DNA of 33,079 nucleotides from Bacteroidota bacterium (GCA_029907355.1 JARYLZ010000031.1:1-33079); one strand, 5' to 3'. Positions 1 through 31,829 are shown, counted from the first letter of the stretch. Program-made: numbers and translations. The notes: generated by a model not told the origin, from the letters alone.

Positions 1-967
1 CGCCGGGCAGTCCCGGCGGGATCCACCAGGAACAGTGCACGACGTCGAAAGAGGCCGGGCCCGGGGCGCCGTAATTCGGCGGGTTCCCCCAGCGGTAGAG
101 GAAGTCGCCGCCGCGCCCGTGCCTCCCGCCGGTGTGGCCGGCCGCCTCCTCCCGCGTCGTGCTGTGGTCGATCACGTACAGCTCGCTCGTGTAGTGCGAG
201 CTCACCGTCACGAGGTCGCGGACGGGGTCGTAACTCACGGCGTTCATGTGCAGCCAGTCACCGCCCCAGGGGCCCGTCACCCCCTGGCAGAGGTTCACGT
301 CGAGGATTTCGGGGTGTTCCCGCACGACGCCGTAATTCTTCTTCGCGGTGTCCTTGTCCTGGATGATGTGATCCCACGCATGCCACTCCCAGACGATCTC
401 CCCGTCCGTCGGGCCGGTCGGCTTGACTTCGACGAGATGGTCCACCCACATGGCCGTCGGGTTCACGCGGCCTGCGGCGGCGGCTTCCGCGGCGCTCTTC
501 ACTTCCCACGCGATGAGAAGGACGTTCCCGTTCGGCATCGGTTCGATATCGTGGTGCGCGATGCGGTCCTGCGACGAGTAGCGGTACTGCCAGAGCACGT
601 TCCCGTCCCAGTCGACCCGCTCGATGATGCCGGTGTAGGCGCCGGTGCGCAGTATCGCATTCGGGTCCGCGGCGGGGCGGAGGAGCGATCCGTCCGGCAG
701 GAGGTACGTCGAGTACACGGTGGTGAGCGTGTGCTGCCAGGTATGGACCGGCGTCCCGTCCATGCCGATGAGGTAGGTCGTCCGGCTGTTGGTCGGACCG
801 AAGAGCGTGTATCCTCCGTACGCCTCCTGTGCGACCGAAGTGCAGTATACGGAGAAGAGGGACAAGACCAGCACAGCGACGGCGGTGGATATGCGTCCGA
901 GCGGAGAAACGCGAGCCGCTTTCCGAGAGCGTGCGCCGCTCCAGTGATACGTCGTTTTTTCTCTCAT
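1..967 (-). CDS. Arylsulfotransferase (ASST)-like secreted protein, 3' end outside window
   Basis: No stop codon is reached before the window edge, so only the first 322 codons are present and the C-terminus is missing. The N-terminus is basic (MREKTTYHWSGARSRK) and leads into a hydrophobic segment ending near VAQ at about residue 47, which looks like a signal peptide. The rest matches the arylsulfotransferase family as I know it: repeated blade-like units with YLIGMDG, HHDIEPMPNGNVLL, WEWHAWDHIIQD, DWLHMNAV, VIDHSTT and DFLYRWGNP. ASST enzymes move sulfate between phenolic compounds in the periplasm, but many relatives are untested beta-propellers, so the substrate is open. It lies 24 bp after the CotH gene and is probably the third gene of that operon. 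The ATG at 967 has no clear Shine-Dalgarno site, as is common in this phylum. Confidence 0.8.
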   Translation of the reverse strand, partial: MREKTTYHWSGARSRKAARVSPLGRISTAVAVLVLSLFSVYCTSVAQEAYGGYTLFGPTNSRTTYLIGMDGTPVHTWQHTLTTVYSTYLLPDGSLLRPAADPNAILRTGAYTGIIERVDWDGNVLWQYRYSSQDRIAHHDIEPMPNGNVLLIAWEVKSAAEAAAAGRVNPTAMWVDHLVEVKPTGPTDGEIVWEWHAWDHIIQDKDTAKKNYGVVREHPEILDVNLCQGVTGPWGGDWLHMNAVSYDPVRDLVTVSSHYTSELYVIDHSTTREEAAGHTGGRHGRGGDFLYRWGNPPNYGAPGPASFDVVHCSWWIPPGLPG

Positions 968-991: not shown

Positions 992-2578
992 TTATCGGGT
1001 GAGTGCGAGCCGGTACGTCCCGCTTCGGTACGAGCCGAGCGCGTCCGTGAACGCCAGCCTGCAGTGGTAGACGCCGCTCGGCAGGCCGTCGAAAGCGTTC
1101 GGGATCTCGTGAGCGCCCGCGAGCCGGTCGCCCGCGTCGAGGCGCCGCACCTCCCTCCCGAGCAGGTCGTACACCGAGAGGCCGACGCGGCCGCCCCGTC
1201 GCAGGACGAAACGCACCGATGCGCCGCCGCGCGAGGGATTGGGGTAACCGTCGACCGACACGAACGGCTGGACTGCCGAGTAATCCGCCCCTGCGGCGGA
1301 ATACGCGTCGACCTGCGACCGGACATTGTCCCCCCGCAGGCGTACGAAGGGGATCAGGGCGGGAATCCTCATGTTGATCCCCACGTACACATCGCGCTCG
1401 AAGTTCTCGAGGAAGAGATCGTACGGGTAGAGCTTGTGGGGATCCGAGCGGACGAGGGGGTCGAGGAAAGGTTTCCAGCGGGCGACAGCCGCCGCGATGG
1501 TGTCCCCCGACGCCGGGCCGTCGACGAGGTTGCGGATCACGGCGAGATAGGCAGTGCGGAGGGAATCGTTCTCCACGATGCGCCGGAGCAACGGGCGCCT
1601 CGAGAGATTCGAGGGGGTCAGAACGTCTTGGCGGATGACGTCCCACTCGTTCGAGTACGCGCCGAAGGCCTCGTTCGGGTCCCAGGGCAGGATGACGAAC
1701 TTCCCGGCGACCCGGTCATCGTACAGGTAGTAATTCCTCCCGGATCCGGTGTAACTGTCGAAATTCGACACCGCCATGTTGAATGCGAGGAGACGAATGC
1801 ACCGGTCGAGGTCGAGCGTCGCCCCCGCACGCGAAACGAAGGAATCCCTGGGCGCGTCGTTCAGGACCTCCACCATGTCGATGAAGCGCGTCCAGTCGTC
1901 CTCCTTCTCGTTCGTCTTCAGCTCGAACTCCCTCTTGTAAGCCTCCTTGTCGCGTCCGCGGTACTCGAGCGTGGCGCCGTTGTCGCCCGCTTTATAGAGG
2001 TTGAATCCGTTGTCGGCGAAGTGCCTCTTCAGGAACGTCTTGTCGATCTGCTCGACCATCAGGTACAAGCCGAGCGGCTCGCCGTTGACCTCGATCCACG
2101 CGTACGCCGCCCGCGGCGAGGGCATGAGCCGGCCGAGGATGTCGTAGGCGAGCTTCTCGCGGAGGAAGGTCGGGTCCTTGACGGCGTTGCTGAAGTTTAG
2201 CGTCTTGACGCCGAAGAACGTCTGTTTGCTCCGGTACTCGTCGAACTTGAGTTTGAGGGGCTTCTTCGGCGTGTGGCGGGACTGCACGTACGAGGAGTTG
2301 CCCTTGTACCGGACACCCACGCTGTCGAACGCGAGACCGTCGTACTCGACGCGCGCCGGCATGTATACCTCCCCCGCGAGGTAGTTCGCCGTGAGAGAAT
2401 CCTGCCACCCCGGCACGGAGAACGTGATGCGGAAGGTGTGGAGCACCGCATCGTCGAAGAGCACACGGGACGAGTCGAGTTCCTGCGCACGAACGCCCCC
2501 GAAACACACCGTGAAGAGAATGACGGCAAGAACCCGCCTGGAGGGCGACGGCTGCCGGTTCGTGGTCATACCGGTCAT
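992..2578 (-). CDS. Secreted CotH kinase family protein with T9SS sorting-type tail
   Basis: The product is 528 aa. It has a signal peptide (residues 1-32, ending VRAQ), a CotH domain (about 40-430) with VRYKGNSS at 89-96, RNYYLYDD at 281-288 and LPWDPNE at 297-303, and a C-terminal domain from about 445 with GYPNPSRG and VYDLLGREVRRL typical of T9SS type A sorting tails. CotH proteins are atypical secreted kinases related to Fam20C; Bacillus CotH phosphorylates spore-coat proteins. Here the target is unknown, probably outside the outer membrane. The ATG at 2578 overlaps the stop of the upstream SUMF1-type gene (ATGA), arguing for translational coupling; a second ATG lies at 2569. A longer in-frame extension upstream runs through the neighbouring gene and was rejected. 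The second CotH at 3873-6140 is clearly related but not a recent duplicate. Confidence 0.92.
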   Translation of the reverse strand: MTGMTTNRQPSPSRRVLAVILFTVCFGGVRAQELDSSRVLFDDAVLHTFRITFSVPGWQDSLTANYLAGEVYMPARVEYDGLAFDSVGVRYKGNSSYVQSRHTPKKPLKLKFDEYRSKQTFFGVKTLNFSNAVKDPTFLREKLAYDILGRLMPSPRAAYAWIEVNGEPLGLYLMVEQIDKTFLKRHFADNGFNLYKAGDNGATLEYRGRDKEAYKREFELKTNEKEDDWTRFIDMVEVLNDAPRDSFVSRAGATLDLDRCIRLLAFNMAVSNFDSYTGSGRNYYLYDDRVAGKFVILPWDPNEAFGAYSNEWDVIRQDVLTPSNLSRRPLLRRIVENDSLRTAYLAVIRNLVDGPASGDTIAAAVARWKPFLDPLVRSDPHKLYPYDLFLENFERDVYVGINMRIPALIPFVRLRGDNVRSQVDAYSAAGADYSAVQPFVSVDGYPNPSRGGASVRFVLRRGGRVGLSVYDLLGREVRRLDAGDRLAGAHEIPNAFDGLPSGVYHCRLAFTDALGSYRSGTYRLALTR

Positions 2579-3528
2579 TTCGCCGGGCGGACCGTGCGGA
2601 ATCCGATGAAGTAGTACTGGTAATCCGGCACGGTGAAGGTCCTCTGCGAGGAACGGAGGACCGCCGCGTCGTTCCCCCAGCTCCCGCCGCGCAGGACGCG
2701 CCACGCACCGGAGGAGGGGCCGCGGGGGTCCGTCGCCGCAGAGGCGGTGTACGCGTCGTACCAGTCGTTGCACCACTCCCAGACGTTGCCGCTCATGTCG
2801 TAGAGGCCCCATGCGTTGGGGAGGAGCGAAGCGACGGGGTGCGTCCCGAAGGCGGGGTTATCCGAGCTGAGCATCCACGAGTTGCCTGCCCACACGGCGT
2901 GCGCGCTGAAGTCGGCCGTGTCGGCGCTCGTGGCGGGGTACGGCCCGAAGGTTTTCCCCCACGAGTAGTCCGTCGTGCTCCGGGCGCGGCATGCGTATTC
3001 CCACTCCGCCTCCGTCGGGAGGCGATACCCGTTGGCCGCGAAGTCGACGCTCACGCCTTCCAGCTTGCAGCCGTTCCCGGGAACCCCGGTGATCCCCGTG
3101 TATCGGTAAACCGTGTCCAAGCCTTCCCGCTTGCTCCGCGCGTTGCAGTAGAGGGCGGCGTCGTCCCACTCCACCTGATAGGCGGGGTACCGGGCGCCGA
3201 CGCCGTACGGGGCGTGCCACGACGGTGCGATGTAACCTGGGTACACGGCCCGCATCACCGCGTCGTAATCCCCCTGTGTGACCTCCGTCGTGTCCATCCA
3301 GAAATCGTAGGTGAACGACACCTGGTGCACGGGCCGCTCATCGGCGCTGCCCGTCGCCGATCCCATCGAGAAACTCTTCCCCTTCGCGGGGATTTTCACC
3401 ATACGGCCCGAGCGCTCCAGCCCGGTATTGGTGGGGTTCGCCGGGTTTCCCTCGTCGGAACTGCAGGAACTGAAAAAGAAAAAACAGGTAAGTGAAAGGA
3501 ACAGAAAAGAACGGATGGAAGAGATCAT
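2575..3528 (-). CDS. SUMF1/FGE-type (formylglycine-generating-enzyme fold) lipoprotein
   Basis: The product is 317 aa. Residues 1-22 form a lipoprotein signal with lipobox FFSSC (Cys22), so it is probably a membrane-anchored lipoprotein. The rest is a full SUMF1 domain: FWMDTTEVTQGDYDAVM, YQVEWDDAALYCNARS, YRLPTEAEWEYACRA, GLYDMSGNVWEWCNDW, VLRGGSW and a terminal GFRTVRPAK. True formylglycine-generating enzymes carry a catalytic Cys pair just after RGGSW. Here that stretch reads RGGSWGNDAAVLRSSQR with no cysteine, so this is probably a non-FGE member of the fold and not a sulfatase activator. A good ribosome site (GGGAG five bases before the ATG) supports the start at 3528. It is the first gene of an operon with CotH and the ASST-like gene. 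Confidence 0.9.
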   Translation of the reverse strand: MISSIRSFLFLSLTCFFFFSSCSSDEGNPANPTNTGLERSGRMVKIPAKGKSFSMGSATGSADERPVHQVSFTYDFWMDTTEVTQGDYDAVMRAVYPGYIAPSWHAPYGVGARYPAYQVEWDDAALYCNARSKREGLDTVYRYTGITGVPGNGCKLEGVSVDFAANGYRLPTEAEWEYACRARSTTDYSWGKTFGPYPATSADTADFSAHAVWAGNSWMLSSDNPAFGTHPVASLLPNAWGLYDMSGNVWEWCNDWYDAYTASAATDPRGPSSGAWRVLRGGSWGNDAAVLRSSQRTFTVPDYQYYFIGFRTVRPAK

Positions 3529-3872
3529 GCTTTCTCCCGGCTCAGATGTTGTAGATAGATGTTCGTGATTCGCTTCGCGATCATGTTCCCACCTCCACGA
3601 GAACGAGGTGGGGGAAATTCTTTCCCATGCTGCGTGAAGTGCTCAGCGGGCGGTGCCCCTAAGGGTGAACAAAAAGGGAGCACTCCGTCGTGAATCGGCG
3701 CGAAAGTTCACGCGTCCAGAGGGAAATGAGGGAAGTTCGACCGCACGGATGACCCGGTGTGATAGTCCCCGCGAATCGTTTCGCACGGACCGCGTCACCG
3801 TGCCGGTTCCGGGGCATCCCTCCTTCGCGTACCGCTTCGGCGACAGAGATGTACTTGGCATTCCAGGGCCTC
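3529..3872. other. Intergenic region upstream of the SUMF1-CotH-ASST operon
   Basis: A 344-bp gap separates the two minus-strand operons. Short open frames exist on both strands but none has a ribosome site, family resemblance or coding look. It probably holds the end of the CotH-VTC transcript and the promoter of the SUMF1 operon, although I cannot point to a convincing terminator or promoter. The only clear structure is the stem-loop listed separately at 3588-3612. Confidence 0.6.
3588..3612 (-). promoter_or_regulatory. Stem-loop in the leader of the SUMF1 operon
   Basis: CCCACCTC at 3588-3595 and GAGGTGGG at 3605-3612 form a perfect 8-bp inverted repeat around a 9-base loop, 60 bp upstream of the SUMF1-type start. 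No run of T follows on either strand, so it is not a standard intrinsic terminator. It could be a leader hairpin or a protein site; its role is unknown. Confidence 0.4.
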
Positions 3873-6140
3873 TCAATACCGGACAAAAAGCGCAGACGCA
3901 GACGTTCCACCCCTGCTTTCCGCGTTGTATCGGATGAAGTATGTCCCTCTCGCCAGCATGGAAATGTCTAATACGTGCATCGGCGACGCCCCCGCGATAT
4001 CCGTCTCGTACACCGTCCGGCCCAGCATGTCCAGGATGCGAATCCGCCCCCTCTCTGCCTGTCCCGTGCGGATGGCGATCGTGCCGGCCGGGGCGGGGTT
4101 GGGGAAGACGTCGAGTCGTGCAGGCTCAGGCGATGTTTCTGCGTCGATGCCCAGCGGCGCGTCGTTGTCCGCTCCCGGTGTCGGACGGCTGTACGTGAAC
4201 GGGCCCCTGCCGTTCGGCCGGCGCGCCCACGACGTGTCGCATCGGGAGACGAAATACCCCGTCGAGTCGAGGAAACCGTTTCCCCGCTCGTCCGAATCGA
4301 ACAGGTACAGAGCCTCCCCATCCTTGTCGATCTTGAAATTCGCATGCAAACCCGGCGTGTCCGTCGTATCGCGATCGGCCCACACGAGGAGGTAACCGTG
4401 CCCCTCGATGACCGTCCCGTCTGGGAATCTCCATTTCCGCGGGTTCGTGAACCGATCCGTCAAGTAGCATCCGCCCAGCGCCGTCGTCTCGCCGGACGTG
4501 TTGTAGAGTTCGATCCAGTCTTCATACTGCCCCTGGGGGTCCGCGATCGTCGAGTCGTTGCAGGCCATGACCTCGTTGATCACGACGGGCAGGTTCGATG
4601 CACGGTGGAGAAACGTGACCGCGTAGGTCGAGCGTTCAGCTCGTTCCGGGTCGAAGGATACGGTCCCGTCCGGGGTCACCGCTTCGATGTAGAAACGGAC
4701 GACGGTGCCGGCCTGGCAAGAAGGAATCTCTGCGAGAAAAACCCCGCTTTCCCTCTTCATCTCGAGTTTGCGAAAAGGTGCACCCCCCACGCTCCATCGG
4801 AGGAACACCCGTGCCGCGCCGGAAACCGTCGTCACGACCCGAAGCGTATCGCCCTCGCGAGGTGCGTGAGGAATCGCCGTCGTCCCCGAGATCGAAGCCG
4901 CTACACGATTCAGCTCCGGGACGGTCGCGAGGTATGCATTGCGGTTGTCCAACAGGGAAAGGATACCGGGTATGATCCCCGCCACGGGTCCGCCCGGACC
5001 GGTCTGGACATTCATCTCCACATTGTCGAAAAACGCCTGCATCGAATAGAGTTTCTTCGTATCCGCCGCGACATCCGCTTTGATGAGCTCTTGGTAGAGC
5101 CGGATACGCTCCATCCAATAGGGCCGGGTGAACGCTTCCCTCACCATGGTCCGATAATGGGCGAGATATCTCTCGCGGAACTCCGGGGCCGTCAGAAGTT
5201 TCGAAATCAGCGGCCGGTTCGGCGCCTGCATGTTATAGAACACCGGGAGACGCTCGCGTTCGGCAAGGGAGAGCTGCTGGCTGAATGTCCCCATGACTTC
5301 GTTGAGGTCCCAGGGGATGAAGACGAAGCGTCCGTCCGCGGGGTTGTGGTAGAAGTAGTAATTGTGCCCGCTGCCGATGTAGGAGTCGAGGTTGACGAGC
5401 AGGTTGCAGAAGACGAGGTACCACAATGCGGCATCCACGTCGAGGACGGTTTGGACGGCTTCGGAGAAACGGTCGGGCGGCGTCGTGCAGAGCGTCTCGA
5501 TGAAGCGCATGAGATCCGCATAGCCGTCGGGGGCGTCCTCCGTCTTGAGCTCGTAGTTCGCACGGTAGCGCGCCGTGTCGGGACCCGCCCACGTCAGGTC
5601 GCCGCGGGGATCGCATTTGTAGAGATTACCCTCGTCCGAGGCGAACCATTGGCGCAGGAAAGACTTGTTCGGCTGCTGCACGTTGAGGTACAGCCCCCAG
5701 TACTCGTCGTTGATGAACAGCTTCACGTACGCGGCTTTCACCGAGGGGAGGTAGTCCGCCGCGAGGCGGTAGGCGATCATCTCCCGGACGAAGGTGGGAT
5801 CCTTGAAGCAGTTGTTCAGGTTGAACGTCGTGTAGCCGCCTAATGATCGGCGGGGAAGGAAAGCGTCCACGGTGATGTTGAACGGTTTCTTTTCCCCGGG
5901 GATGTTGAAGGAGGAATTCCCTTTGTACCGGACGCCTACACTGTCCAGCGTGACGCCGTCCACCGTCAATGTCGCCGGGATGTCGCGTTCGAGGGGAGCG
6001 TTTGCCGCGAGGAGTTGCCGCCAGTCCGGTTGAGGGAATTTCAGCCGGAATTCCCAGATTACCAGCGGGTCGTAGAGATCCTGGGCATCCGCTAGGGAAA
6101 AACACAAGAGAGAGATCGTGACGAACGCTCGGACTCGCAT
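3873..6140 (-). CDS. Secreted CotH kinase with lamin-tail domain and T9SS sorting-type tail
   Basis: The product is 755 aa. Signal peptide 1-19 (ends LADA-Q), CotH domain about 25-400 with VRYKGNSS at 70-77, HNYYFYHN at 259-266 and IPWDLNE at 275-281, an Ig-like linker about 415-510, a lamin-tail domain about 515-640 (VVINEVMACN, YEDWIELYN) and a sorting tail from about 675 (FPNPAP, IRILDMLGRTVYETDI, GTYFIRYN). CotH proteins are secreted Fam20C-like kinases; the lamin-tail domain is an adhesive Ig-like fold common on surface proteins. The protein probably acts outside the cell after T9SS export. The ATG at 6140 is preceded by GAGGGGG and lies 21 bp after the DUF4956 stop, so it is the last gene of the HlyD-VTC-DUF4956-CotH operon. 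The physiological substrate cannot be read from sequence. Confidence 0.93.
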   Translation of the reverse strand: MRVRAFVTISLLCFSLADAQDLYDPLVIWEFRLKFPQPDWRQLLAANAPLERDIPATLTVDGVTLDSVGVRYKGNSSFNIPGEKKPFNITVDAFLPRRSLGGYTTFNLNNCFKDPTFVREMIAYRLAADYLPSVKAAYVKLFINDEYWGLYLNVQQPNKSFLRQWFASDEGNLYKCDPRGDLTWAGPDTARYRANYELKTEDAPDGYADLMRFIETLCTTPPDRFSEAVQTVLDVDAALWYLVFCNLLVNLDSYIGSGHNYYFYHNPADGRFVFIPWDLNEVMGTFSQQLSLAERERLPVFYNMQAPNRPLISKLLTAPEFRERYLAHYRTMVREAFTRPYWMERIRLYQELIKADVAADTKKLYSMQAFFDNVEMNVQTGPGGPVAGIIPGILSLLDNRNAYLATVPELNRVAASISGTTAIPHAPREGDTLRVVTTVSGAARVFLRWSVGGAPFRKLEMKRESGVFLAEIPSCQAGTVVRFYIEAVTPDGTVSFDPERAERSTYAVTFLHRASNLPVVINEVMACNDSTIADPQGQYEDWIELYNTSGETTALGGCYLTDRFTNPRKWRFPDGTVIEGHGYLLVWADRDTTDTPGLHANFKIDKDGEALYLFDSDERGNGFLDSTGYFVSRCDTSWARRPNGRGPFTYSRPTPGADNDAPLGIDAETSPEPARLDVFPNPAPAGTIAIRTGQAERGRIRILDMLGRTVYETDIAGASPMHVLDISMLARGTYFIRYNAESRGGTSASALFVRY

Positions 6141-6161
6141 GGCACACCCCCTCGTCTCGTT

Positions 6162-6836
6162 CTATTGGAACTCCTCGTCGAAGAACAGGTTCACGCGGTG
6201 CACGGAGCCGATCGCGCGCAGATCGCGCAAGAGCTTCACGCCGCCGTTCTCTTCCCTCAATCGGACATGGAAGGAGAGTTCCATCGCTCCGCCACCCTCG
6301 ACCGCCTTCACGTGGAGAAGGCGCGTGGATACGCAATGCTTCTTCAGGACGGGGAGGTAGGGTGGGTCGCCGTCCCCTTCGCCATCGTAGATGAACTGCA
6401 GGAGGTATTCCCGCCTTCCCTTCCTCGCCTGGGGAACATGACGCAGCGTCAGGGCGACGATCCCTACGGCGAGCGTGCCGGTGAGGGCGATCAGCGTCAA
6501 ACCGGCGCCTGCCGCCATCCCCGCCGCGAGCGCGAAAAAAATGAAGATGATATCCTGCATGTCCTTGACGGCGGTACGAAAGCGGATGATGGCCATCGCT
6601 CCCACCAGCCCGAATGCCCGAGCGAGGTTGCTTCCGATCACCATGATCACGACCGTCGTGATCATGGAGAGAAGCACGAGGGAATGCGCGAACGAAGGGG
6701 AGTACATGCGCCCCCCGAAACAGAGCCGGTAGAAGAACGCCACAAGCATCCCGCAGATCAGCGCGACGATGGTATTCTCGAGAACGACGGAGAACGTGAT
6801 CGGAAGCGTTGCGATTTGGTCGAGGTCTTGGAACAT
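6162..6836 (-). CDS. DUF4956 integral membrane protein
   Basis: The product is 224 aa counted from the ATG at 6836 (MFQDLDQIATLP). An in-frame upstream extension reads into the preceding VTC gene and is rejected. Three or four hydrophobic helices fill the first 140 residues, followed by a soluble C-terminal domain of about 85 residues ending FFDEEFQ. The block GAMAIIRFRTAVKD, followed by a glycine/alanine-rich helix, is the signature of the DUF4956 family. DUF4956 genes commonly sit beside VTC-domain genes, and that is the case here: 20 bp after the VTC stop and 21 bp before CotH. A role as the membrane partner of the VTC protein, for instance in moving polyphosphate, is inference only. Confidence 0.9.
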   Translation of the reverse strand: MFQDLDQIATLPITFSVVLENTIVALICGMLVAFFYRLCFGGRMYSPSFAHSLVLLSMITTVVIMVIGSNLARAFGLVGAMAIIRFRTAVKDMQDIIFIFFALAAGMAAGAGLTLIALTGTLAVGIVALTLRHVPQARKGRREYLLQFIYDGEGDGDPPYLPVLKKHCVSTRLLHVKAVEGGGAMELSFHVRLREENGGVKLLRDLRAIGSVHRVNLFFDEEFQ

Positions 6837-6856
6837 GTCGGTCGGCAGTGGGCGTT

Positions 6857-7591
6857 CTACAACGGCATGAGCGCTTCGCGCACGCCGCAGGCTTGCACAC
6901 CGATGCAGTATTTCGAGACGGTCTGCCGGATGAGCCCGAACGCCCCGAGGCAATCGGCCAACCAGAACGGGATTCCCCGCACACTCTTGATTTCGATGAC
7001 GCAGTACGGTTCGAGATACGGGGTGAAATCGTCTTCGGAAAAGATGTCATCCAGCCGGGGGTGCAAACGGCAGCGGAGGTTGTAATCGAAGGTCAGCCGG
7101 AGGCCGTGGTCGAAGCTCCCGTGGAAAGCCTGACGTTCGTAGGTCACGAGGGCGATGTTTTGAAGGTTGCAGGAGTACATGTGGTACAGGAACCGCCGGG
7201 CGTGTTCGTCCGCGGTGGGGAAACGGCGGAGCCGAAGAACGTACGACTCGATATCCCCCGTCGCGAGCAAGGCTTCCACGTTCGCGAACGCGACCGGAGC
7301 GCGGTTCTTCGAGATGGCCTCGCGGTCCTTCCTCTTGATCTCGAGGAACGCGATACTGCGTTCGCTCCGCTCGTTGTAAACACGGACACGGATTTTCTTC
7401 CGAACAGGCAAACCCTCGATCTTCTCCCGATAAAAACGGAGGTCGGTGGTGTCGTAGTAAATGCTTCGGACTGTGTACCATCCCCCGCCGTTCGTTTCTG
7501 CAAGGCCGTCCGGCACGAGGTACGGCGTGACGCTCTTGAAGAAACGATCCTTTTCTTCCTTTCGAATCAGGTATTTGTACTCGATACGCAT
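6857..7591 (-). CDS. VTC-domain polyphosphate polymerase-like protein
   Basis: The product is 244 aa from the ATG at 7591 (MRIEYKYLIRKEEKDRFF). The VTC catalytic domain fills the protein and shows the alternating basic strands expected of the tunnel fold: EYKYLIR at the start, SIYYDTTDLRFY, VRKKIRVRVY, AFLEIKRKD, LVTYERQAF, LRLTFDYNLRCR and CVIEIKS near the end. In yeast the same fold in Vtc4 makes polyphosphate from ATP, and bacterial single-domain members are thought to do likewise; activity here is not proven. The gene starts 2 bp after the HlyD-like stop and ends 20 bp before DUF4956, so the three are surely cotranscribed. There is no separate membrane anchor, so it is probably cytoplasmic and bound to the DUF4956 protein. 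Confidence 0.92.
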   Translation of the reverse strand: MRIEYKYLIRKEEKDRFFKSVTPYLVPDGLAETNGGGWYTVRSIYYDTTDLRFYREKIEGLPVRKKIRVRVYNERSERSIAFLEIKRKDREAISKNRAPVAFANVEALLATGDIESYVLRLRRFPTADEHARRFLYHMYSCNLQNIALVTYERQAFHGSFDHGLRLTFDYNLRCRLHPRLDDIFSEDDFTPYLEPYCVIEIKSVRGIPFWLADCLGAFGLIRQTVSKYCIGVQACGVREALMPL

Positions 7592-7593
7592 GG

Positions 7594-8724
7594 TCAACGG
7601 GCGCGGAAGATCCCTGCTATCCGATCGAAGAGCCACCGCCGGAGGCTCACCCTCCCGTGCGAGATTTCGCAGTCGGCGCGTATCCCGGGCGGAATATCCG
7701 TGCCCTCGGTGTCCAGTACAGCCGCAACGGTGACGTATTGCCTCCCCGTACGGGTCTGGACGATGTCGCTCTTCAAGACGACGCGTCCCGACAGGACGAG
7801 ATCCTGCATGGCGACGGTTGTGCTCACGGAATCGCCGACCGCCACAGCCCCCGCTTTCTCGAGGGGGACGGACATGACGGCCACGAAACGGGACGGGTCT
7901 CCTAAGCGAACGATCGTGTCCGAAAAGACGGTTTTGTATATGCGCCCTGGGAACGGTGCACGGAGGGAAAAGAACGACCGCTTCCGTTCCAAAGCTTCGC
8001 GCCTGCGCTGGAGTGCCGCGATCTGCGACTTGCTGTATTGGATCTGCTCCTCTTTCGCTCCGGTCGAGACCGCGCGGAAATGCGCTTCCGCTGCTGTGAG
8101 GGCGGCGCGGGCGGCGTCCGCAGATCGATCCGCCTCGTCCAGTTCCTGCTGGGCGATCAATCCTCGTTCGAACATGAGACGCGCCCGTGCCCGCGTCCTC
8201 TCGAGCCCCTCGTACTCGGCGCGCGCCCGTGCGAGATTCCCGCGCGCTTCTTCGACAAGGCTCGCTTTCTCCCCTGTCCTCTGCACATCGAGCGCGGCCG
8301 AAGCGGCGTCCAGCGAACCCTCCATCTCGGCTTGCAGGAGCGCGAGATCCGCGGAGTGAACGGTCACGAGCGTGTCCCCTGCTTGCACCCACCCACCCTC
8401 GGTGACGTGTCGCGACAGCTCCACACGAATGGCGTCCTGACGCTCGAACTGGTGGATGAGAATGGATTCCGTCGAGCCGGCAACATGGTCGTAGAGGATG
8501 ACTTCCAACGGCCCCCCAACAGGCCGCACCGCATGCCATTCGCGCGCCGGTAGGACGATCCCCGGCACGTGCACACGCTGAGGAACCGAGAGGGGGAGGA
8601 CGAGGATGAGGAGGAAAAAAACAGGTGCGACAAGGTAAAAGACGGAGTTTCTCATCCTCGAAAAGACAAAACACGCTTTCGACAAGTTACGTTCTTCGAC
8701 CGTTTCCGCACGTTTTTGCGTCAT
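7594..8724 (-). CDS. HlyD-like membrane fusion (periplasmic adaptor) protein
   Basis: The product is 376 aa from the ATG at 8724; a second ATG at 8655 (MRNSVFYLVAP) lies nearer the membrane segment and may be the true start, since neither has a good ribosome site. One transmembrane helix (about 28-50) is followed by a periplasmic part: the first half of a lipoyl-like barrel (about 100-120, GGWVQAGDTLVTVHSADL), an alanine/glutamate-rich coiled-coil hairpin (about 125-250), the second barrel half (SLRAPFPGRIYK) and a beta domain ending GIRADCEISH. This order is typical of HlyD/EmrA adaptors. No ABC ATPase, MFS pump or TolC gene is nearby, so its partner may be the DUF4956 protein. It is the first gene of the operon. 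Confidence 0.82.
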   Translation of the reverse strand: MTQKRAETVEERNLSKACFVFSRMRNSVFYLVAPVFFLLILVLPLSVPQRVHVPGIVLPAREWHAVRPVGGPLEVILYDHVAGSTESILIHQFERQDAIRVELSRHVTEGGWVQAGDTLVTVHSADLALLQAEMEGSLDAASAALDVQRTGEKASLVEEARGNLARARAEYEGLERTRARARLMFERGLIAQQELDEADRSADAARAALTAAEAHFRAVSTGAKEEQIQYSKSQIAALQRRREALERKRSFFSLRAPFPGRIYKTVFSDTIVRLGDPSRFVAVMSVPLEKAGAVAVGDSVSTTVAMQDLVLSGRVVLKSDIVQTRTGRQYVTVAAVLDTEGTDIPPGIRADCEISHGRVSLRRWLFDRIAGIFRAR

Positions 8725-9322: not shown

Positions 9323-11248
9323 ATGCTGAAATGCAAGGGAAAAGCATGCGAGGTTGTTTTGGATATACGCGTTTTCTACTTTTCACCGTTGTTTTCAGCA
9401 CGTCGCCCCCGGGAAAAAATCTCCGTGTTCAGATCCATCGTCGGACTGTGTCTCGTTCTGGCAGCCAGTATCGCCGCCTTTTTCCTGTTCCCCGATCTCG
9501 CCGTTCGAATCGCTGCAGGCGGTGTTTTTTTCATTTCGACGATATCTCTGGGAATGACTCTTTTTAATTATTTCAATAAGCGGAACATACGCCAGGGAAC
9601 GGAAGGCGGAACGGAGGGGAGCGGAAATGAGGACGCGATCTCCGGGCGAGGCGAGATAGCTTCGACACATCGCAGCACATCGGAAAAACAGCGTCTTTCC
9701 GCGACACAGGGTGGACACCGGGTCGGACTCCCCGAGGAAATTCCCGAACATCTCTATCGTTTCGATGAACATGATCTCCCGACAGACGACCCGAGCGCGG
9801 AATTCAATTTCCTAACACGACGCCTTCTCGCCGCTCTCAAAGACCAACTGCTCGCTCACACGACCGCCCTGTTCTGGATCAACATAGACCGCCAGCAAAT
9901 CGTCATCGGGGAATTCGTCACCGACAGCAGGAATTTCACGACGGCACGGCGCATCCCTCTCGGAAGCGATCTGATCAGCAACATCGGGAAACTCGGCAAG
10001 CCTGTCGTCCTCCAGAACATCACGGAGAATGCGGAGGGGGACTTGCTCGTCTATTACGACGGGCGGGCGGGTATACGCTCCTTTGTCGGCGTGCCCGTCT
10101 TTTTCAAAGCCGAAACGATCGCCGTGCTCGCTGCGGACAGTACGGCTGCCGATGCGTTCGGAATCGAAACGGTGGCCTCCATGGGAACGTTCACCGGTAT
10201 CGTCTCGATGCTGCTGGCGAGTTACAATCACAAATTCGATCTCACCGCCGACGCGAAACTCCTCCAGGCGCTCGACCAGGGCAGGCGGGCGATGCAGTCC
10301 GCCATGGACCCCTATGGAATCGCGACCGCAGCGGCGGAAACCGCCGTGCGATTGCTGGACTGGGACTACGCGGCCGTCATCCTCTACAATTCGGAGAAAC
10401 AGGGGTGGGTTGTCATGCGGAGCATGACGCGCCTTCCGAACCTTCCCTACGTCTCGGAGGGCGTCACGGTGGACGTGGATCGTTCCGTGTTCCGTCCCGT
10501 TCTGCACTACCAGGAAGGGCGTATCCTCGACGCCCCTCAGCCCCCTGCATTCCGGTTCCATGAGAAAGAAGTCGTCGCTTCCAGCGGACAGTTGTGCGTC
10601 GCCCCCATCATGACGACCCGCCGATGCATCGGGTTCCTCATCGTCGAGTACCGCGAGGGTGCCCAGTACGGCTCACGGGATCTCGACGTCCTGACACGGG
10701 TCGGCGACCTCACGGGCATCTTCCTGGAATTGGCCGCGGGGCGCGAGCTTGCCCGCAAGCACCTCATCATCGACGAGGGAACCAAAACCGCCAGCCGCAC
10801 GCTCTTCCTCCAGCGCCTGCGGGAAGAGTACGAACGCATTCAACGGCACGGAGGGACCGCGGTCTTCTTCCTCGTCGCCCTCGACAGCCCGGAGGAAATG
10901 CTCGAACGGCACGGTGTGGAAGGCGTGGAGACGATCGTCGGGCAGATCGCGAACATCATCCGCGGGGCCCTGGCGCCCTATGACGTTCTCGGACGCTACG
11001 AGTCTACCCGATTCGGGCTTCTGCTCCTCCACAGCACGGCGGAAGAGGCTTTCATCCGCGGCGAAAAAATCCGGAAATCCGTGGCGAGCATGGTCCTCTC
11101 TCAGGACGGTTCCTCGTTTTCCGTGACCGTCAGTCTCGGCGGGTGCACGATCGTCCAAGGGCATGAGTACGACAATCTCTTCCGGATCGCCGAACAAGCC
11201 CTCACCTTGACCGCGGGCGACGGCGGGAACTCCGTCAAGGTCGTGTGA
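9323..11248 (+). CDS. Membrane-anchored GAF-GAF protein with degenerate GGDEF domain
   Basis: The product is 641 aa from the ATG at 9323. A GTG at 9425 (VFRSIVGLC) is a likely alternative because the first 34 residues look unlike coding sequence and neither start has a clear ribosome site. Two hydrophobic segments (about 38-57 and 60-82) form a hairpin anchor, then a charged linker, a first GAF domain (about 165-300), a second GAF-like domain (about 310-475) and a C-terminal domain with the diguanylate-cyclase fold (about 485-640). The catalytic GGDEF loop is replaced by GRYESTRF, so it probably makes no cyclic-di-GMP and may instead bind nucleotide or a partner. It probably senses a small molecule or redox state. 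It lies upstream of rpoD on the same strand. Confidence 0.85.
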   Translation: MLKCKGKACEVVLDIRVFYFSPLFSARRPREKISVFRSIVGLCLVLAASIAAFFLFPDLAVRIAAGGVFFISTISLGMTLFNYFNKRNIRQGTEGGTEGSGNEDAISGRGEIASTHRSTSEKQRLSATQGGHRVGLPEEIPEHLYRFDEHDLPTDDPSAEFNFLTRRLLAALKDQLLAHTTALFWINIDRQQIVIGEFVTDSRNFTTARRIPLGSDLISNIGKLGKPVVLQNITENAEGDLLVYYDGRAGIRSFVGVPVFFKAETIAVLAADSTAADAFGIETVASMGTFTGIVSMLLASYNHKFDLTADAKLLQALDQGRRAMQSAMDPYGIATAAAETAVRLLDWDYAAVILYNSEKQGWVVMRSMTRLPNLPYVSEGVTVDVDRSVFRPVLHYQEGRILDAPQPPAFRFHEKEVVASSGQLCVAPIMTTRRCIGFLIVEYREGAQYGSRDLDVLTRVGDLTGIFLELAAGRELARKHLIIDEGTKTASRTLFLQRLREEYERIQRHGGTAVFFLVALDSPEEMLERHGVEGVETIVGQIANIIRGALAPYDVLGRYESTRFGLLLLHSTAEEAFIRGEKIRKSVASMVLSQDGSSFSVTVSLGGCTIVQGHEYDNLFRIAEQALTLTAGDGGNSVKVV

Positions 11249-22849: not shown

Positions 22850-23182
22850 ACCCGACCCATGTCGTGAAAACGATCCGCGAAGGAAACGAACGAAGAACCT
22901 GAAATGACACCTGCACATGAGACAGCCATCTCACATGGCATTCTGCCAACAGGACCTGCTCAATGTCGGGAAAACGGAAGAAATATTCACTCGAACGCGA
23001 CGTCCGTATCGTGCGGGGAGCGTGCAAAGGCATTCGTGGAATCGCTGATTTGAACCATGGATTTCAAGGATCGAACGGGACAGGATCCGGTGCTTCCATG
23101 AAAAGGCATCGGAGACAACTTTTCCATTCCAGGAACAATTTTTCCCGCCCCGGCGTACTGTCTCGCAATGACCGGAGGTTCG
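22850..23182. other. Divergent intergenic region
   Basis: This 333-bp region separates the divergent membrane-protein and lamin-tail genes and should hold both promoters. TTGAA (23050-23054) and TTCAA (23063-23067) form a small inverted repeat around CCATGG. No RNA gene or further structure was seen. Confidence 0.5.
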
Positions 23183-25735
23183 ATGGACGGGAAAATCGAA
23201 AAACCCTCGTTTTCATGGCGACGATACTTCACCCTCTTTGTCGTGTTCGGGTCGTGCGCTCGGTCGCAGGGAGTCCCCGTCATCAACGAGATCATGTACC
23301 GCCCCGCTGCAGGGGAATGCGAGTGGGTCGAATTGTTCAACCCCTCGAACGACACGGTGAACCTTCGGGACTGGATCCTCCACGACGCGACATCGACCCG
23401 CCCGCTCATCACATCCACCGATCTCTTTTTCCCGCCTGGGGGCTACATCGTCATTGCATCCGATTCCTCGATCCTTGCAACCGGGAGCGGATTTCCGCTC
23501 CACATCATGAAGAACTTCCCTTCATTGAACAACTCGGGCGACGATGTCTTTTTGAGGGCTCCCGATTCCAGCCTCGTCGAATGCGTTCCGTATCGATCCT
23601 CATGGGGTGGGGGGACGGGCGTATCGCTCGAACGGATCGACGTCGCCGCATCGCCGACGGATGCATCGAACTGGGGATCATCCCGAGCCCCTTCGGGATC
23701 GACCCCAGGTAGATGGAACAGTCTCGCGCCGCCGGAACACGATCTTGCCGTCGAATCCCTCGAGAAGATTCCTCCCCGCCCTTCGCGAGATCAACCGTTC
23801 GCGTTTCGTATCGTGATCCGGAATCTCGGGTTGCACGAGGCGGAAGCGTACCGAGTCGCCCTGTATGACGACACGAACGGCAACGAGTCCCCTGACCCCA
23901 CGGAATGTGTATTCGACAAGACGGTCGTCGACCCGTTGCCGCCCGGCGACCGCTCGATCGTGTCGTGTGAACTCCGCCCGGCACGGTGTCGGTCGAAGGT
24001 TTTCATCGCGGCCGTCGCGTGGGAGCAGGATGAGGCCGCGTACAACGATCACGTGGTAGACACTATTCGTTTCGCACCGCCTTACGGGAGTATCCTCATC
24101 AACGAGGTCATGTACGCACCGATGGCCGACGAACCGGAATGGATCGAGTTGGCGAATGCCACCGATGACAGTGTCGACCTCCGGGGGTGGTCCATCGGGG
24201 ACGAGGCGTCGTGGAGAAAAATCGGTCAAGATCCTGCGGCGATCGTCCCACCACGGGGTTTCGCCGTTTTGTCTTCGTCGGCGGAACTTGGGCGTTACTA
24301 CACTTTCACGACCGTCGACTTTATCACCACGACCCTGCCTTCCCTCAACAACGGCGGTGACGTCGTACGCATCGCAGACGAGACAGGCACCCTCATCGAC
24401 AGCATGCGTTACACTCCCCAGATGGGGGGAAACGACGGTCGTTCCCTCGAACGCGTGGATTTCCGCAAGCCGTCCACCGCTACGGAAAATTGGTCTCCCT
24501 GCGAGTCGGTTGAGCGGGGTACGCCGGGAAAGACGAACAGCGTCGCCGTTCGGGAACACGATCTCTCCGTGCGTTCGATCTCCGCCGAGGACGCTGACAT
24601 CATCGTGACGGTCATGAATACGGGGCTCACGCGATCTGATAACGCCGATGTGCACCTCTACCGGGACAGAAACGCCGATGCGCAGCCGGATACGGACGAG
24701 GAAATAGCGAACGAAACGCTTCCTCCCATCGTGAGCGGCGACTCCGCCCGGGTCGTCTTCCATCGGTCAGCCGTCGAGTCGGGGATCCTGTGGTTCATCG
24801 CGGTCGTCGATTACGCCGAAGATGAACGTCCGCGGGACAACATCCGGTCGGCGGTCATCGTTCGAGCCGCCCCGAAGGGTCAGCTGACGGTCAACGAAGT
24901 CCTCTTCGCGCCGCTCAGCGGGGATGCGGAGTGGGTGGAATACGTCAACCTCGCCGGTGAATCCGTGGACGTTGCGGGGTATCGCATCGCAGGAGCGCTC
25001 GGCAATACGGGGACGCGACCGACGATCGCGCTCCCCCTTACACCGTGCCGGGTCCCGCCGAACGGGTACCTCGTCATTGCCTCGGACAGCAGTGTATTCA
25101 CACGTTTCCCGTCTGTTCGTCTGGAAACCGGCGCCCGCGTCGTCGTCCTCAACCGCTCCTCGTTGGATTTGGGGGAAGACGACGAAATTCTGTTCATCGA
25201 TGCAGCGGGGGAAGTCGTTGACAGTGTCGCGTACACTTCGGATTGGCATAACCCTCACGCAGCCGACACGCGCGGCCGCTCCCTCGAGCGGCTCAACCCG
25301 ACTTTCCCTGCTTCCCTCCGGTCGAACTGGAGCACCAGCGCCGACCGAGAAGGCGGGACGCCCGGTCGCAGGAACTCTCTCTATACGGAACGCCCGCCTT
25401 GGCAGACGACATCGACGGCGAGGATCGAGGTACACCCGAATCCCTTTTCACCGGACGGCGATGGTTTCGAGGACCACACCGTGATCTCGTACGAGCTGCC
25501 CGGAACCATCTCCCAGGTACGTCTCCGCGTATTCGATGCGGTCGGGCGACCCGTCCGCACGATCGCCAACAACATTCCCGCCGGCACGACGGGCCAATAC
25601 CTTTTCGATGGGTTGGACGACAACGGACGCCGCCTGAGAGTCGGTGTATACATCCTTCTCCTCGAGGCCGTGGACCTTCACGGGGCGCGCATCGACGCCG
25701 TGAAGAGCACCATGGTCGTCGCAACTCCGCTCTGA
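23183..25735 (+). CDS. Secreted surface protein with three lamin-tail domains and FlgD-like C-terminus
   Basis: From the ATG at 23183, chosen because GGAGG lies four bases before it, the product is 850 aa; another ATG 15 bases upstream lacks such a site. A signal peptide occupies about 1-29. Three lamin-tail domains start at about 31 (VPVINEIMYRPAAGECEWVE), 302 (SILINEVMYAPMADEPEWIE) and 567 (QLTVNEVLFAPLSGDAEWVE), joined by two CARDB-like Ig linkers (VALYDDTNGNESPDP; VHLYRDRNADAQPD). The last 100 residues are a FlgD-like Ig domain (HPNPFSPDGDGFEDHTVISY, LRVFDAVGRPVRTIA). The protein is probably exported and adhesive or structural. The C-terminal domain takes the place of the T9SS tail seen on the CotH proteins, so the export route is less certain. 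Confidence 0.92.
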   Translation: MDGKIEKPSFSWRRYFTLFVVFGSCARSQGVPVINEIMYRPAAGECEWVELFNPSNDTVNLRDWILHDATSTRPLITSTDLFFPPGGYIVIASDSSILATGSGFPLHIMKNFPSLNNSGDDVFLRAPDSSLVECVPYRSSWGGGTGVSLERIDVAASPTDASNWGSSRAPSGSTPGRWNSLAPPEHDLAVESLEKIPPRPSRDQPFAFRIVIRNLGLHEAEAYRVALYDDTNGNESPDPTECVFDKTVVDPLPPGDRSIVSCELRPARCRSKVFIAAVAWEQDEAAYNDHVVDTIRFAPPYGSILINEVMYAPMADEPEWIELANATDDSVDLRGWSIGDEASWRKIGQDPAAIVPPRGFAVLSSSAELGRYYTFTTVDFITTTLPSLNNGGDVVRIADETGTLIDSMRYTPQMGGNDGRSLERVDFRKPSTATENWSPCESVERGTPGKTNSVAVREHDLSVRSISAEDADIIVTVMNTGLTRSDNADVHLYRDRNADAQPDTDEEIANETLPPIVSGDSARVVFHRSAVESGILWFIAVVDYAEDERPRDNIRSAVIVRAAPKGQLTVNEVLFAPLSGDAEWVEYVNLAGESVDVAGYRIAGALGNTGTRPTIALPLTPCRVPPNGYLVIASDSSVFTRFPSVRLETGARVVVLNRSSLDLGEDDEILFIDAAGEVVDSVAYTSDWHNPHAADTRGRSLERLNPTFPASLRSNWSTSADREGGTPGRRNSLYTERPPWQTTSTARIEVHPNPFSPDGDGFEDHTVISYELPGTISQVRLRVFDAVGRPVRTIANNIPAGTTGQYLFDGLDDNGRRLRVGVYILLLEAVDLHGARIDAVKSTMVVATPL

Positions 25736-29688: not shown

Positions 29689-30558
29689 ATGGGGACGGTA
29701 CAAGTGAAAATGCCCGGGCGAATGCGTGAAGGGGAAAAGGCTTATTCGGTCGATATCCTCCCCGGTCCCATTCCCTTGCGGGAGCTTTTCCGCGACGTGT
29801 GGAGGCACCGCGAACTCATCACCGTCCTCGCGTCTCGGGACATCCGGGTCCGTTACAAGCAGACCGCCCTCGGAGTTTTGTGGGCAATCGTAAGACCGGC
29901 GGTAGCAACGTTCGTGTTCACCTTCGTGTTCGGGAATGTGGCGGGTTTGCCCTCCGGCACAATCCCGTATCCTCTCCTGGCGCTCAGCGGCGTTCTCGCC
30001 TGGAGCCTTTTCTCGGAGGGGGTGTCGGCGGGAAGCCAGAGCATGCTGGTGAATCCGAACCTCGTGACGAAGGTGTATTTCCCTCGTATCATCATGCCGA
30101 TGTCCGCCACGCTTCGCGGGCTCGTAGATTTCGCAGTGGCGGCGACGTTCTATTTCGCTCTCGCCTGGATCTACGGTATGCCGCCCGGTTGGAAGGTCGC
30201 ATTCCTTCCGATCGCCGTTCTCTATGCGTTGTTCGTTTCCACGGGGTTTACACTCTGGTTCAGTGTGCTCGGCGTTCGGTACCGCGATGTCGCGCATGCG
30301 CTCCCGTTCGTCCTGCAGGCGCTGTTCTGGATCTCACCCGTCGGCTATGCGATCGCTGCGATACCCGAACGCTGGGCGGTGCCGTATTGGTGCAATCCGC
30401 TCACGAGCGTCATCGCGATATTCCGTGTGTCGCTCTTGAACGAGCCGCTGCCCGAAACCCCGCTGTTCCTTCTCTCCGTTGCCGTCTCGATCATCGTGTT
30501 CACAGGGGGGCTTTCCCTTTTTCGGCGTGCCGAAACGCGTTTCGCCGACGTGATATGA
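29689..30558 (+). CDS. wzm: Wzm-like ABC-2 permease for polysaccharide export
   Basis: The product is 289 aa from the ATG at 29689; ATGs at 29710 and 29722 are also possible, and none has a clear ribosome site. The cytoplasmic N-terminus leads to LRELFRDVWRHRELITVLASRDIRVRYKQTALG (read in pieces), the interfacial region typical of Wzm/TagG, then six transmembrane helices with PYPLLALSGVLAWSLFSE, VTKVYFPRIIMPMSATLRG and a GVRYRDVAHALPFVLQALFW loop. With Wzt it forms the pore that carries lipid-linked polysaccharide, such as O-antigen, across the inner membrane. The stop overlaps the Wzt start (ATGA). The position in an operon with glycan genes supports the role. Confidence 0.92.
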   Translation: MGTVQVKMPGRMREGEKAYSVDILPGPIPLRELFRDVWRHRELITVLASRDIRVRYKQTALGVLWAIVRPAVATFVFTFVFGNVAGLPSGTIPYPLLALSGVLAWSLFSEGVSAGSQSMLVNPNLVTKVYFPRIIMPMSATLRGLVDFAVAATFYFALAWIYGMPPGWKVAFLPIAVLYALFVSTGFTLWFSVLGVRYRDVAHALPFVLQALFWISPVGYAIAAIPERWAVPYWCNPLTSVIAIFRVSLLNEPLPETPLFLLSVAVSIIVFTGGLSLFRRAETRFADVI

Positions 30559-31829
30559 ACCAATCCGCCATTTCCACCTCCGGACTAGGGAAACGGTACC
30601 TTCTCGGGGAACGCGGCCCCGCCTTGGGTGGACGTACGCTCCGGGACGCGATGGGATCCGCTGTGGGGCGCATCCTGCGGAAAGAACCGCGAAGAGATGA
30701 AAACCCGGAAATCTGGGCACTGCGCGACATATCCCTCGAGGTCCACGAGGGCGAGATCGTCGGGATCGTCGGCAGGAATGGGGCGGGTAAAACGACGCTC
30801 CTGAAGATCCTCTCCCGCATCACGCGTCCGACGGAAGGTCGCGCCCGTGTCCGCGGCCGTGTCGCTTCCCTGCTCGAAGTCGGGACGGGTTTCCACCGCG
30901 AACTCACCGGGCGTGAAAACATCCGTCTCAGCGGCGCTGTTCTCGGCATGAGACGGGCCGAAACGGAAGCACGGTTCGATGAGATCGTGTCGTTTGCAGG
31001 CGTCGAAGATTTTCTCGACACGCCGGTCAAACATTACTCCACCGGCATGTACCTGCGCCTCGCGTTCTCGGTGGCAGCACATCTTCAACCGGATATCCTC
31101 CTCGTCGACGAGATTCTCGCCGTCGGGGACCTGGAGTTCCAGAAGAAATGCCTCGGTAAAATGGGGGAGGTCGTCCGCGGCGGAAGGACCATCCTGTTCG
31201 TCAGCCACAACCTGCCTGCCGTCCAGGAGCTCTGCCCCCGTACGATCCTGATCGACGGCGGTCGAATCCTCCAGGACGGGAGAACCGACGAGGTACTCCG
31301 CGCCTACGTGGGGATGTACGACAAACGAGGTTCTTCCAGCGAAATCACCCCCGAGATGCATGACCTCCAGTACAACGGCGACGCCTTCGTGCGACTTCTC
31401 CGTGTCGAACTCGAAAACCCCTATGCCGGTTCTTTCGCCGTGCGGTGGCGTGAACCGATCCGGCTCACGTTCCACTTCGAAGTCCGCCGCGATTTGCCGG
31501 ATGCCGTGTTCGGCCTCCGCGTCGACAGCATGCACGGAACGGCGGTGTTCGGTTCCCATCATACGGACGGGGGAGACGCGCCATTCCGCCTGCCGCGGGG
31601 GACGTATTCCCTTTCCGTCATCGTGGAAAACCCGCTTCAGGCAGGGCGTTTTTCCATTTCCATCGGCGCACACAGCGCCGTCACACGCGATATCTACTTC
31701 CTCGTGCCCCATGCCGTCTCGTGCGAAGTGCTCGACATCCCCTTCGACGCCCCCCGATATATCGGGAAGCACCTCTGCCTCGTGAACGGCGATGCACAAT
31801 GGTCAAAGCCGGAGCCGTTCGAACCATGA
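30555..31829 (+). CDS. wzt: Wzt-like ABC ATPase with C-terminal sugar-binding-type domain
   Basis: The product is 424 aa from the ATG at 30555. The ATPase domain (about 1-250) has Walker A GRNGAGKTT, Q-loop region RVASLLEVGTGFHRELTGREN, signature YSTGM, Walker B ILLVDEILAVGD and switch His in FVSHN. The long C-terminal part (about 255-424, VRLLRVELENPYAG, IRLTFHFEVRRDLPDAVFG, HAVSCEVLDIPFDAP) matches the Wzt C-terminal Ig-like domain that recognises the end of the glycan. Presence of this domain predicts export of a polymer capped or marked at its non-reducing end. The gene overlaps both neighbours by ATGA. A longer upstream frame reads through the permease gene and is not used. Confidence 0.95.
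   Translation: MNQSAISTSGLGKRYLLGERGPALGGRTLRDAMGSAVGRILRKEPRRDENPEIWALRDISLEVHEGEIVGIVGRNGAGKTTLLKILSRITRPTEGRARVRGRVASLLEVGTGFHRELTGRENIRLSGAVLGMRRAETEARFDEIVSFAGVEDFLDTPVKHYSTGMYLRLAFSVAAHLQPDILLVDEILAVGDLEFQKKCLGKMGEVVRGGRTILFVSHNLPAVQELCPRTILIDGGRILQDGRTDEVLRAYVGMYDKRGSSSEITPEMHDLQYNGDAFVRLLRVELENPYAGSFAVRWREPIRLTFHFEVRRDLPDAVFGLRVDSMHGTAVFGSHHTDGGDAPFRLPRGTYSLSVIVENPLQAGRFSISIGAHSAVTRDIYFLVPHAVSCEVLDIPFDAPRYIGKHLCLVNGDAQWSKPEPFEP

Follow-up and report, generated by a model that had tools for sequence, protein, structure and literature searches.

How could a bacterium place polyphosphate at its surface? Polyphosphate occurs outside several bacteria, and we know of no established bacterial machine dedicated to its export. 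The question is raised here by an operon of a Bacteroidota bacterium, in which the gene of a predicted polyphosphate polymerase lies between those of a periplasmic adaptor and a membrane protein, followed by genes of surface enzymes. The window, meaning the whole stretch of DNA that was analysed, is an entire contig of 33,079 nt, and its relevant features are the following:

7594..8724, minus strand: HlyD-like periplasmic adaptor, 376 aa (PF13437, HlyD_3, 2.5e-6)
6857..7591, minus strand: predicted VTC-type polyphosphate polymerase, 244 aa, soluble (PF09359, E 8e-39)
6162..6836, minus strand: DUF4956 polytopic membrane protein, 224 aa (PF16316, 9e-12)
3873..6140, minus strand: secreted CotH kinase-fold protein, 755 aa (PF08757, 8e-61), with a lamin-tail domain (LTD, PF00932, 1e-15) and a T9SS type A sorting domain (Por_Secre_tail, PF18962, 3e-8)
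2575..3528, minus strand: FGE/SUMF1-fold lipoprotein (PF03781, 4e-52)
992..2578, minus strand: second CotH kinase-fold protein (PF08757, 4e-64), with a weak T9SS tail (6e-4, below the cut-off)
2..967, minus strand: arylsulfotransferase-fold protein, truncated at the contig end after 321 aa (PF05935, 1.2e-17)

The HlyD-like, VTC, DUF4956 and first CotH genes, all on the minus strand, are separated by gaps of 2, 20 and 21 bp. A sequence-only reading of this DNA had described the four genes with their families and spacing, which the coordinates and the Pfam and profile matches bear out; it had also ended the cluster at CotH, and in this it fell short, as the FGE-fold lipoprotein, the second CotH and the arylsulfotransferase continue downstream. 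A 344-bp gap separates the first CotH from the FGE-fold lipoprotein with the strand unchanged, and the start of the second CotH overlaps the stop of the lipoprotein gene as ATGA. The gene order in sister genomes is FGE, CotH, arylsulfotransferase, HlyD, VTC and DUF4956, and since the same pieces stand together there, the downstream genes are counted as part of the set. Between the CotH and FGE genes (window 3528-3873) lies a hairpin, CCCACCTC/GAGGTGGG, a candidate terminator or regulatory element; Rfam and tRNA searches gave no match.

The polymerase and the membrane protein are tightly linked. Among 100 relatives, VTC is present in 23 genomes, DUF4956 in 26 and both in 22 (p 4e-17), with the genes neighbouring. 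A phylum-wide sample of 247 Bacteroidota genomes, taken so that loci were not chosen by similarity, carries VTC in 43 genomes, and DUF4956 is linked to VTC in all 46 loci examined, adjoining it in 44, a count which leaves out two contig-edge fragments of one genome. For this pair, the neighbourhood survey that the sequence-only reading had called for thus reveals a linkage far beyond chance. The loci fall into a type A with a longer VTC, to which the window belongs, and a type B with a shorter one, a boundary that was set after the data were seen, so that p-values between the types are descriptive and not a test. The HlyD adaptor stands beside VTC–DUF4956 in 27/27 type A loci, either before VTC or after DUF4956, giving two gene orders (at L193 and L196 it is confirmed by Pfam), and in 0/19 type B loci, where DUF2490 occurs in 14/19; DUF2490 is found in no type A locus. 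In one case DUF2490 also matches an outer-membrane barrel family, and it is probably such a barrel. At L069 the adaptor is of a different, HlyD_D23 type, and a TolC gene lies between DUF4956 and VTC. The short-VTC loci paired with DUF2490 are L056, L057, L200-L206, L208-L211 and L213.

The invariant unit is VTC–DUF4956, joined in diderms by an outer-envelope partner. A protein-level scan of plasmids and named genome loci provided seven loci from Pseudobutyrivibrio, Planococcus, Nonomuraea, Paenibacillus, Acetoanaerobium, Enterococcus and Anaerolineae, which we take to be single-membrane (monoderm) taxa. VTC stands beside DUF4956 in all seven, HlyD and DUF2490 in none (0/7 each), and CotH is present in four. 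The third component tracks the outer membrane, because HlyD is found in 71/72 informative named diderm loci of the window's type (all but L111, from Stahlbacteria) and in 0/7 monoderm loci, a comparison in which phylogeny is confounded with envelope type. A recognised outer partner is absent from five short-type loci, as from L111. On the L111 contig, DUF4956 is split across two frames (9737-10475), through sequence error or decay. One of the monoderm records, an Enterococcus faecalis plasmid with VTC–DUF4956 and CotH (L180, 9004-14024), is without annotation.

The adaptor has the parts of a periplasmic bridge: an N-terminal membrane helix, an alpha-hairpin, a barrel-sandwich and a beta-barrel. 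Its AF2 model (pLDDT 93) finds MacA, EmrA and AcrA as best Foldseek matches (E 4e-15), and the hairpin tip is of the RLS type (R180-x3-M184-x6-A191), with R in 99%, L/M in 95% and S/A in 84% of 94 homologues. The motif R-x3-L-x6-S is, as we take it from the adaptor literature, the one that docks to TolC. No TolC gene was found in the window; a TolC-family gene lies inside the operon at four loci (L069, L121, L160, L173), and TolC-type channel genes, along with the T9SS translocon SprA, are present elsewhere in the source genome, where one of the channels may serve as partner. Tandem TolC genes on contig C22 were considered as the orphan partner and are probably not it, the lengths of the ORFs among which they lie suggesting a MacAB-type operon.

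The polymerase appears equipped for synthesis. As a single sequence, the window VTC had no match in the PDB; with a profile, the yeast Vtc4 structures are reached at E 6e-21. At least 119 of 120 bacterial homologues retain equivalents of Vtc4 K200, R264, R266, R361, E426, K428 and K458, residue numbers being assigned by counting along the alignment with R264/R266 as a check. Every Vtc4 active-site residue checked is present in the window protein, K6, R68, R70 and E200 corresponding to K200, R264, R266 and E426; in the yeast complex, R264A/R266A/E426N is an inactivating mutant (PMC9911596). There, synthesis is coupled to translocation, and the chain enters a channel lined with basic residues (PMC9911596). 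No SPX domain was found in the window VTC, the VTC profile alone covering the 244 aa end to end. PPK1 is present elsewhere in the source genome, so VTC is not required as a housekeeping polymerase. We infer from the active site that polyphosphate is the cargo; literature searches on bacterial VTC function found nothing. A VTC fragment with an internal TGA (G049:C8:91769-91957) reflects either sequence error or decay.

The membrane protein is the least familiar part. DUF4956 matches PF16316 at 45.4 bits (gathering score 30.6), and its AF2 model (pLDDT 86) has five helices and a C-terminal ACT-like domain; the ACT-like domain alone matches solved structures, the membrane part giving no match. 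R85 and R87 are invariant in 140/140 sequences from both VTC types and from monoderms, and, judging by helix limits and charge, they would sit at the cytoplasmic mouth if the basic C-terminal domain is cytoplasmic.

We lean towards the reading that HlyD–VTC–DUF4956 forms an envelope-spanning unit for polyphosphate synthesis and export, holding it somewhat more probable than its negation. Cytosolic VTC would polymerise phosphate from ATP, like yeast Vtc4, and the nascent anionic chain would pass through DUF4956, with the invariant arginines at its cytoplasmic mouth. The HlyD adaptor would join DUF4956 to a TolC-family outer-membrane channel, bringing polyphosphate to the cell surface, where CotH kinases, the arylsulfotransferase and the FGE-fold lipoprotein, and elsewhere glycoside hydrolases, may build or modify a matrix at the site of delivery. 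The sequence-only reading had likewise proposed that VTC makes polyphosphate and that DUF4956 with HlyD exports it, and at the level of comparative evidence this agrees with the invariant linkage, the catalytic residues, the TolC-docking adaptor, the TolC genes in four operons and the way in which the third component follows the outer membrane. Several observations speak against export: an outer partner is not recognised at the five short-type loci or at L111, the window has no TolC gene, the monoderm and diderm sets also differ phylogenetically, and a Hymenobacter plasmid (L173, 5844-9084) has a T9SS protein gene after HlyD–DUF4956–TolC, with VTC not found nearby.

The similarity of DUF4956 to the regulator MgtC, together with its ACT-like domain, likewise counts against export and leads to a different explanation, in which an MgtC-like DUF4956 gates VTC for regulation or phosphate homeostasis, polyphosphate is kept in the cell and HlyD handles a different substrate. 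The relation to the NCBIfam MgtC/SapB family is a distant resemblance only (E 7e-6, 25.7 bits, curated cut-off 214 not reached). In Streptococcus intermedius, whose Pel-locus trio is SIR_1592-1594, deletion of DUF4956 raises Pel, deletion of CotH lowers it and both alter aggregation, whereas no aggregation phenotype is reported for deletion of the VTC gene (PMC12345266). DUF4956 may therefore act without VTC, a result that counts for the regulatory pair and against export. However, gating leaves unexplained why HlyD or DUF2490 stands beside the pair only in diderms and why TolC genes occur in the operon, and we regard it as improbable, the weakest of the alternatives weighed here.

The same families have a published setting. 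The cotH–PPP–DUF4956–DUF4832 genes accompany Pel exopolysaccharide loci of Gram-positives as an accessory set (PMC7112168), and the sequence-only reading, which was right that VTC, DUF4956 and CotH are neighbours in other phyla, needs amending where it saw no known joint function (PMC7112168, PMC12345266). The cotH–PPP–DUF4956 synteny was not found outside Pel loci by the 2025 authors (PMC12345266); in the loci of the present surveys it is common outside them. In NELoc-2 of C. perfringens, VTC lies beside a gene annotated as a 226-aa tubulin/FtsZ, and genes of CotH, HEAT and a glycosyltransferase come next (PMC2879425); this order nearly matches that of the Planococcus plasmid, and the 'tubulin' gene is probably DUF4956. 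Identity of the window's operon with a Pel locus was rejected, since PelG (PF16933) has no match in the source genome. In a literature search that covered few subscription journals, neither the HlyD-linked nor the DUF2490-linked form turned up.

The operon could still be an exopolysaccharide accessory module, in which VTC–DUF4956 is a source of phosphate for a surface polysaccharide, attaches phosphate to it or adjusts its production, CotH phosphorylates glycans or proteins of the matrix and HlyD helps to export the modified glycan. The trio's place in the Pel accessory set (PMC7112168), mutants with altered Pel levels (PMC12345266) and core neighbours such as GH16 (10/92), GH5 (7/92), CBM6 (5/92) and glycosyltransferases (near the core at L061, L174 and L175) fit this explanation; T9SS proteins are also among the neighbours. 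Against it, the core is not repeatedly accompanied by any one polysaccharide synthase, PelG is missing, most diderm loci have no adjacent polysaccharide gene and VTC keeps its chain-polymerisation residues, which leaves the module unlikely in our estimate. In the Neomarinimicrobiota loci L106, L108, L109, L114, L116, L136 and L143, secreted GH5 and GH16 are among the genes around the core.

What, then, is the place of CotH? The first CotH aligns to B. cereus CotH (5jd9, E 2.5e-16), and both catalytic-Asp motifs are kept, as NLD/IPWD in the first and NFD/LPWD in the second; the positions that probably correspond to D228 and D251 of B. subtilis (PMC7821199) were located in the aligned B. cereus structure through the 23-residue spacing of that pair. 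Scored with a kinase-domain profile, CotH is present in 23/23 VTC genomes and 22/77 others among the 100 relatives (p 1.7e-10; genus level p 2e-5). It lies inside the locus in 22/75 named loci, in varying order and copy number, and adjoins the core in both diderm subtypes and in 4/6 monoderm plasmid loci. CotH is thus a frequent, facultative associate of VTC–DUF4956 outside the core, because only 22/75 loci contain it; the sequence-only reading, which had made it a member of the system, is upheld for co-occurrence and not for core membership. A more modest explanation is that HlyD–VTC–DUF4956 is one system and that CotH, the FGE-fold protein and the arylsulfotransferase are surface genes merely co-located with it, with no functional tie, which is compatible with export and a rival to the sequence-only reading. 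The low share of loci and the loose order favour it, the genome-level association and the recurrent adjacency oppose it, and we give it a substantial minority chance.

The other surface enzymes recur as well. An arylsulfotransferase and CotH stand beside the core again at L089 (Zixibacteria), L111 (Stahlbacteria), L153 (Bacteroidales) and L059 (Ignavibacteria), and an intact arylsulfotransferase homologue at L074 matches FlgD_ig and Por_Secre_tail (8e-4, below the cut-off). Literature searches for CotH together with arylsulfotransferase found nothing. The FGE-fold lipoprotein was rejected as a true sulfatase activator and shares the fold only, since the catalytic cysteine pair is absent in its alignment to the formylglycine-generating enzyme 2q17.

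Every member belongs to a family already known, and the set has in part been published. The operon resembles the eukaryotic VTC complex (Vtc4 with Vtc1/Vtc3 membrane domains) in that a tunnel-fold polymerase, whose catalytic residues are the same, is joined by a membrane protein bearing conserved basic residues; it differs in lacking SPX, in having DUF4956 instead of a Vtc1-type domain and in adding an envelope adaptor, so that at most it may work like such a complex. The Gram-positive Pel accessory set has the same three families adjacent and no reported HlyD, whereas the operon has no Pel genes (PelG absent) and adds a T9SS-exported CotH, an FGE-fold lipoprotein and an arylsulfotransferase. 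MacAB/EmrAB-TolC pumps have in common the MacA/EmrA-fold adaptor with its TolC-docking tip and, in some operons, a TolC gene, but the inner-membrane part would here be DUF4956 and not an ABC, MFS or RND transporter. The Bacillus spore-coat kinase CotH shares the kinase fold and both catalytic-Asp motifs, while the operon's CotH carries lamin-tail and T9SS sorting domains; to our knowledge, no spore coat is known in the source organism's class.

Beyond the single operon, we tentatively put forward, at somewhat less than even chances, a new class of secretion machine, in which VTC–DUF4956 makes polyphosphate and drives it through the inner membrane, interchangeable outer parts (HlyD with TolC, a DUF2490 barrel, or no such part in monoderms) carry it on to the surface, and CotH may draw on it for phosphate independently of ATP. 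If true, the operon would answer how some bacteria place polyphosphate outside the cell, and it may also explain how secreted kinases could work without ATP. As a concrete candidate for export, it has parts and residues that can be named; it is common across Bacteroidota and related phyla, has a counterpart in Gram-positives and gives a testable function to DUF4956, DUF2490 and bacterial VTC proteins.

Two further genes of the window may be recorded. Away from the operon, 23168-25735 encodes a protein with three lamin-tail domains, a CARDB and an FlgD-type domain, and 29799-31829 encodes an ABC ATPase with a Wzt C-terminal domain, which hints at O-antigen-type polysaccharide export genes nearby.
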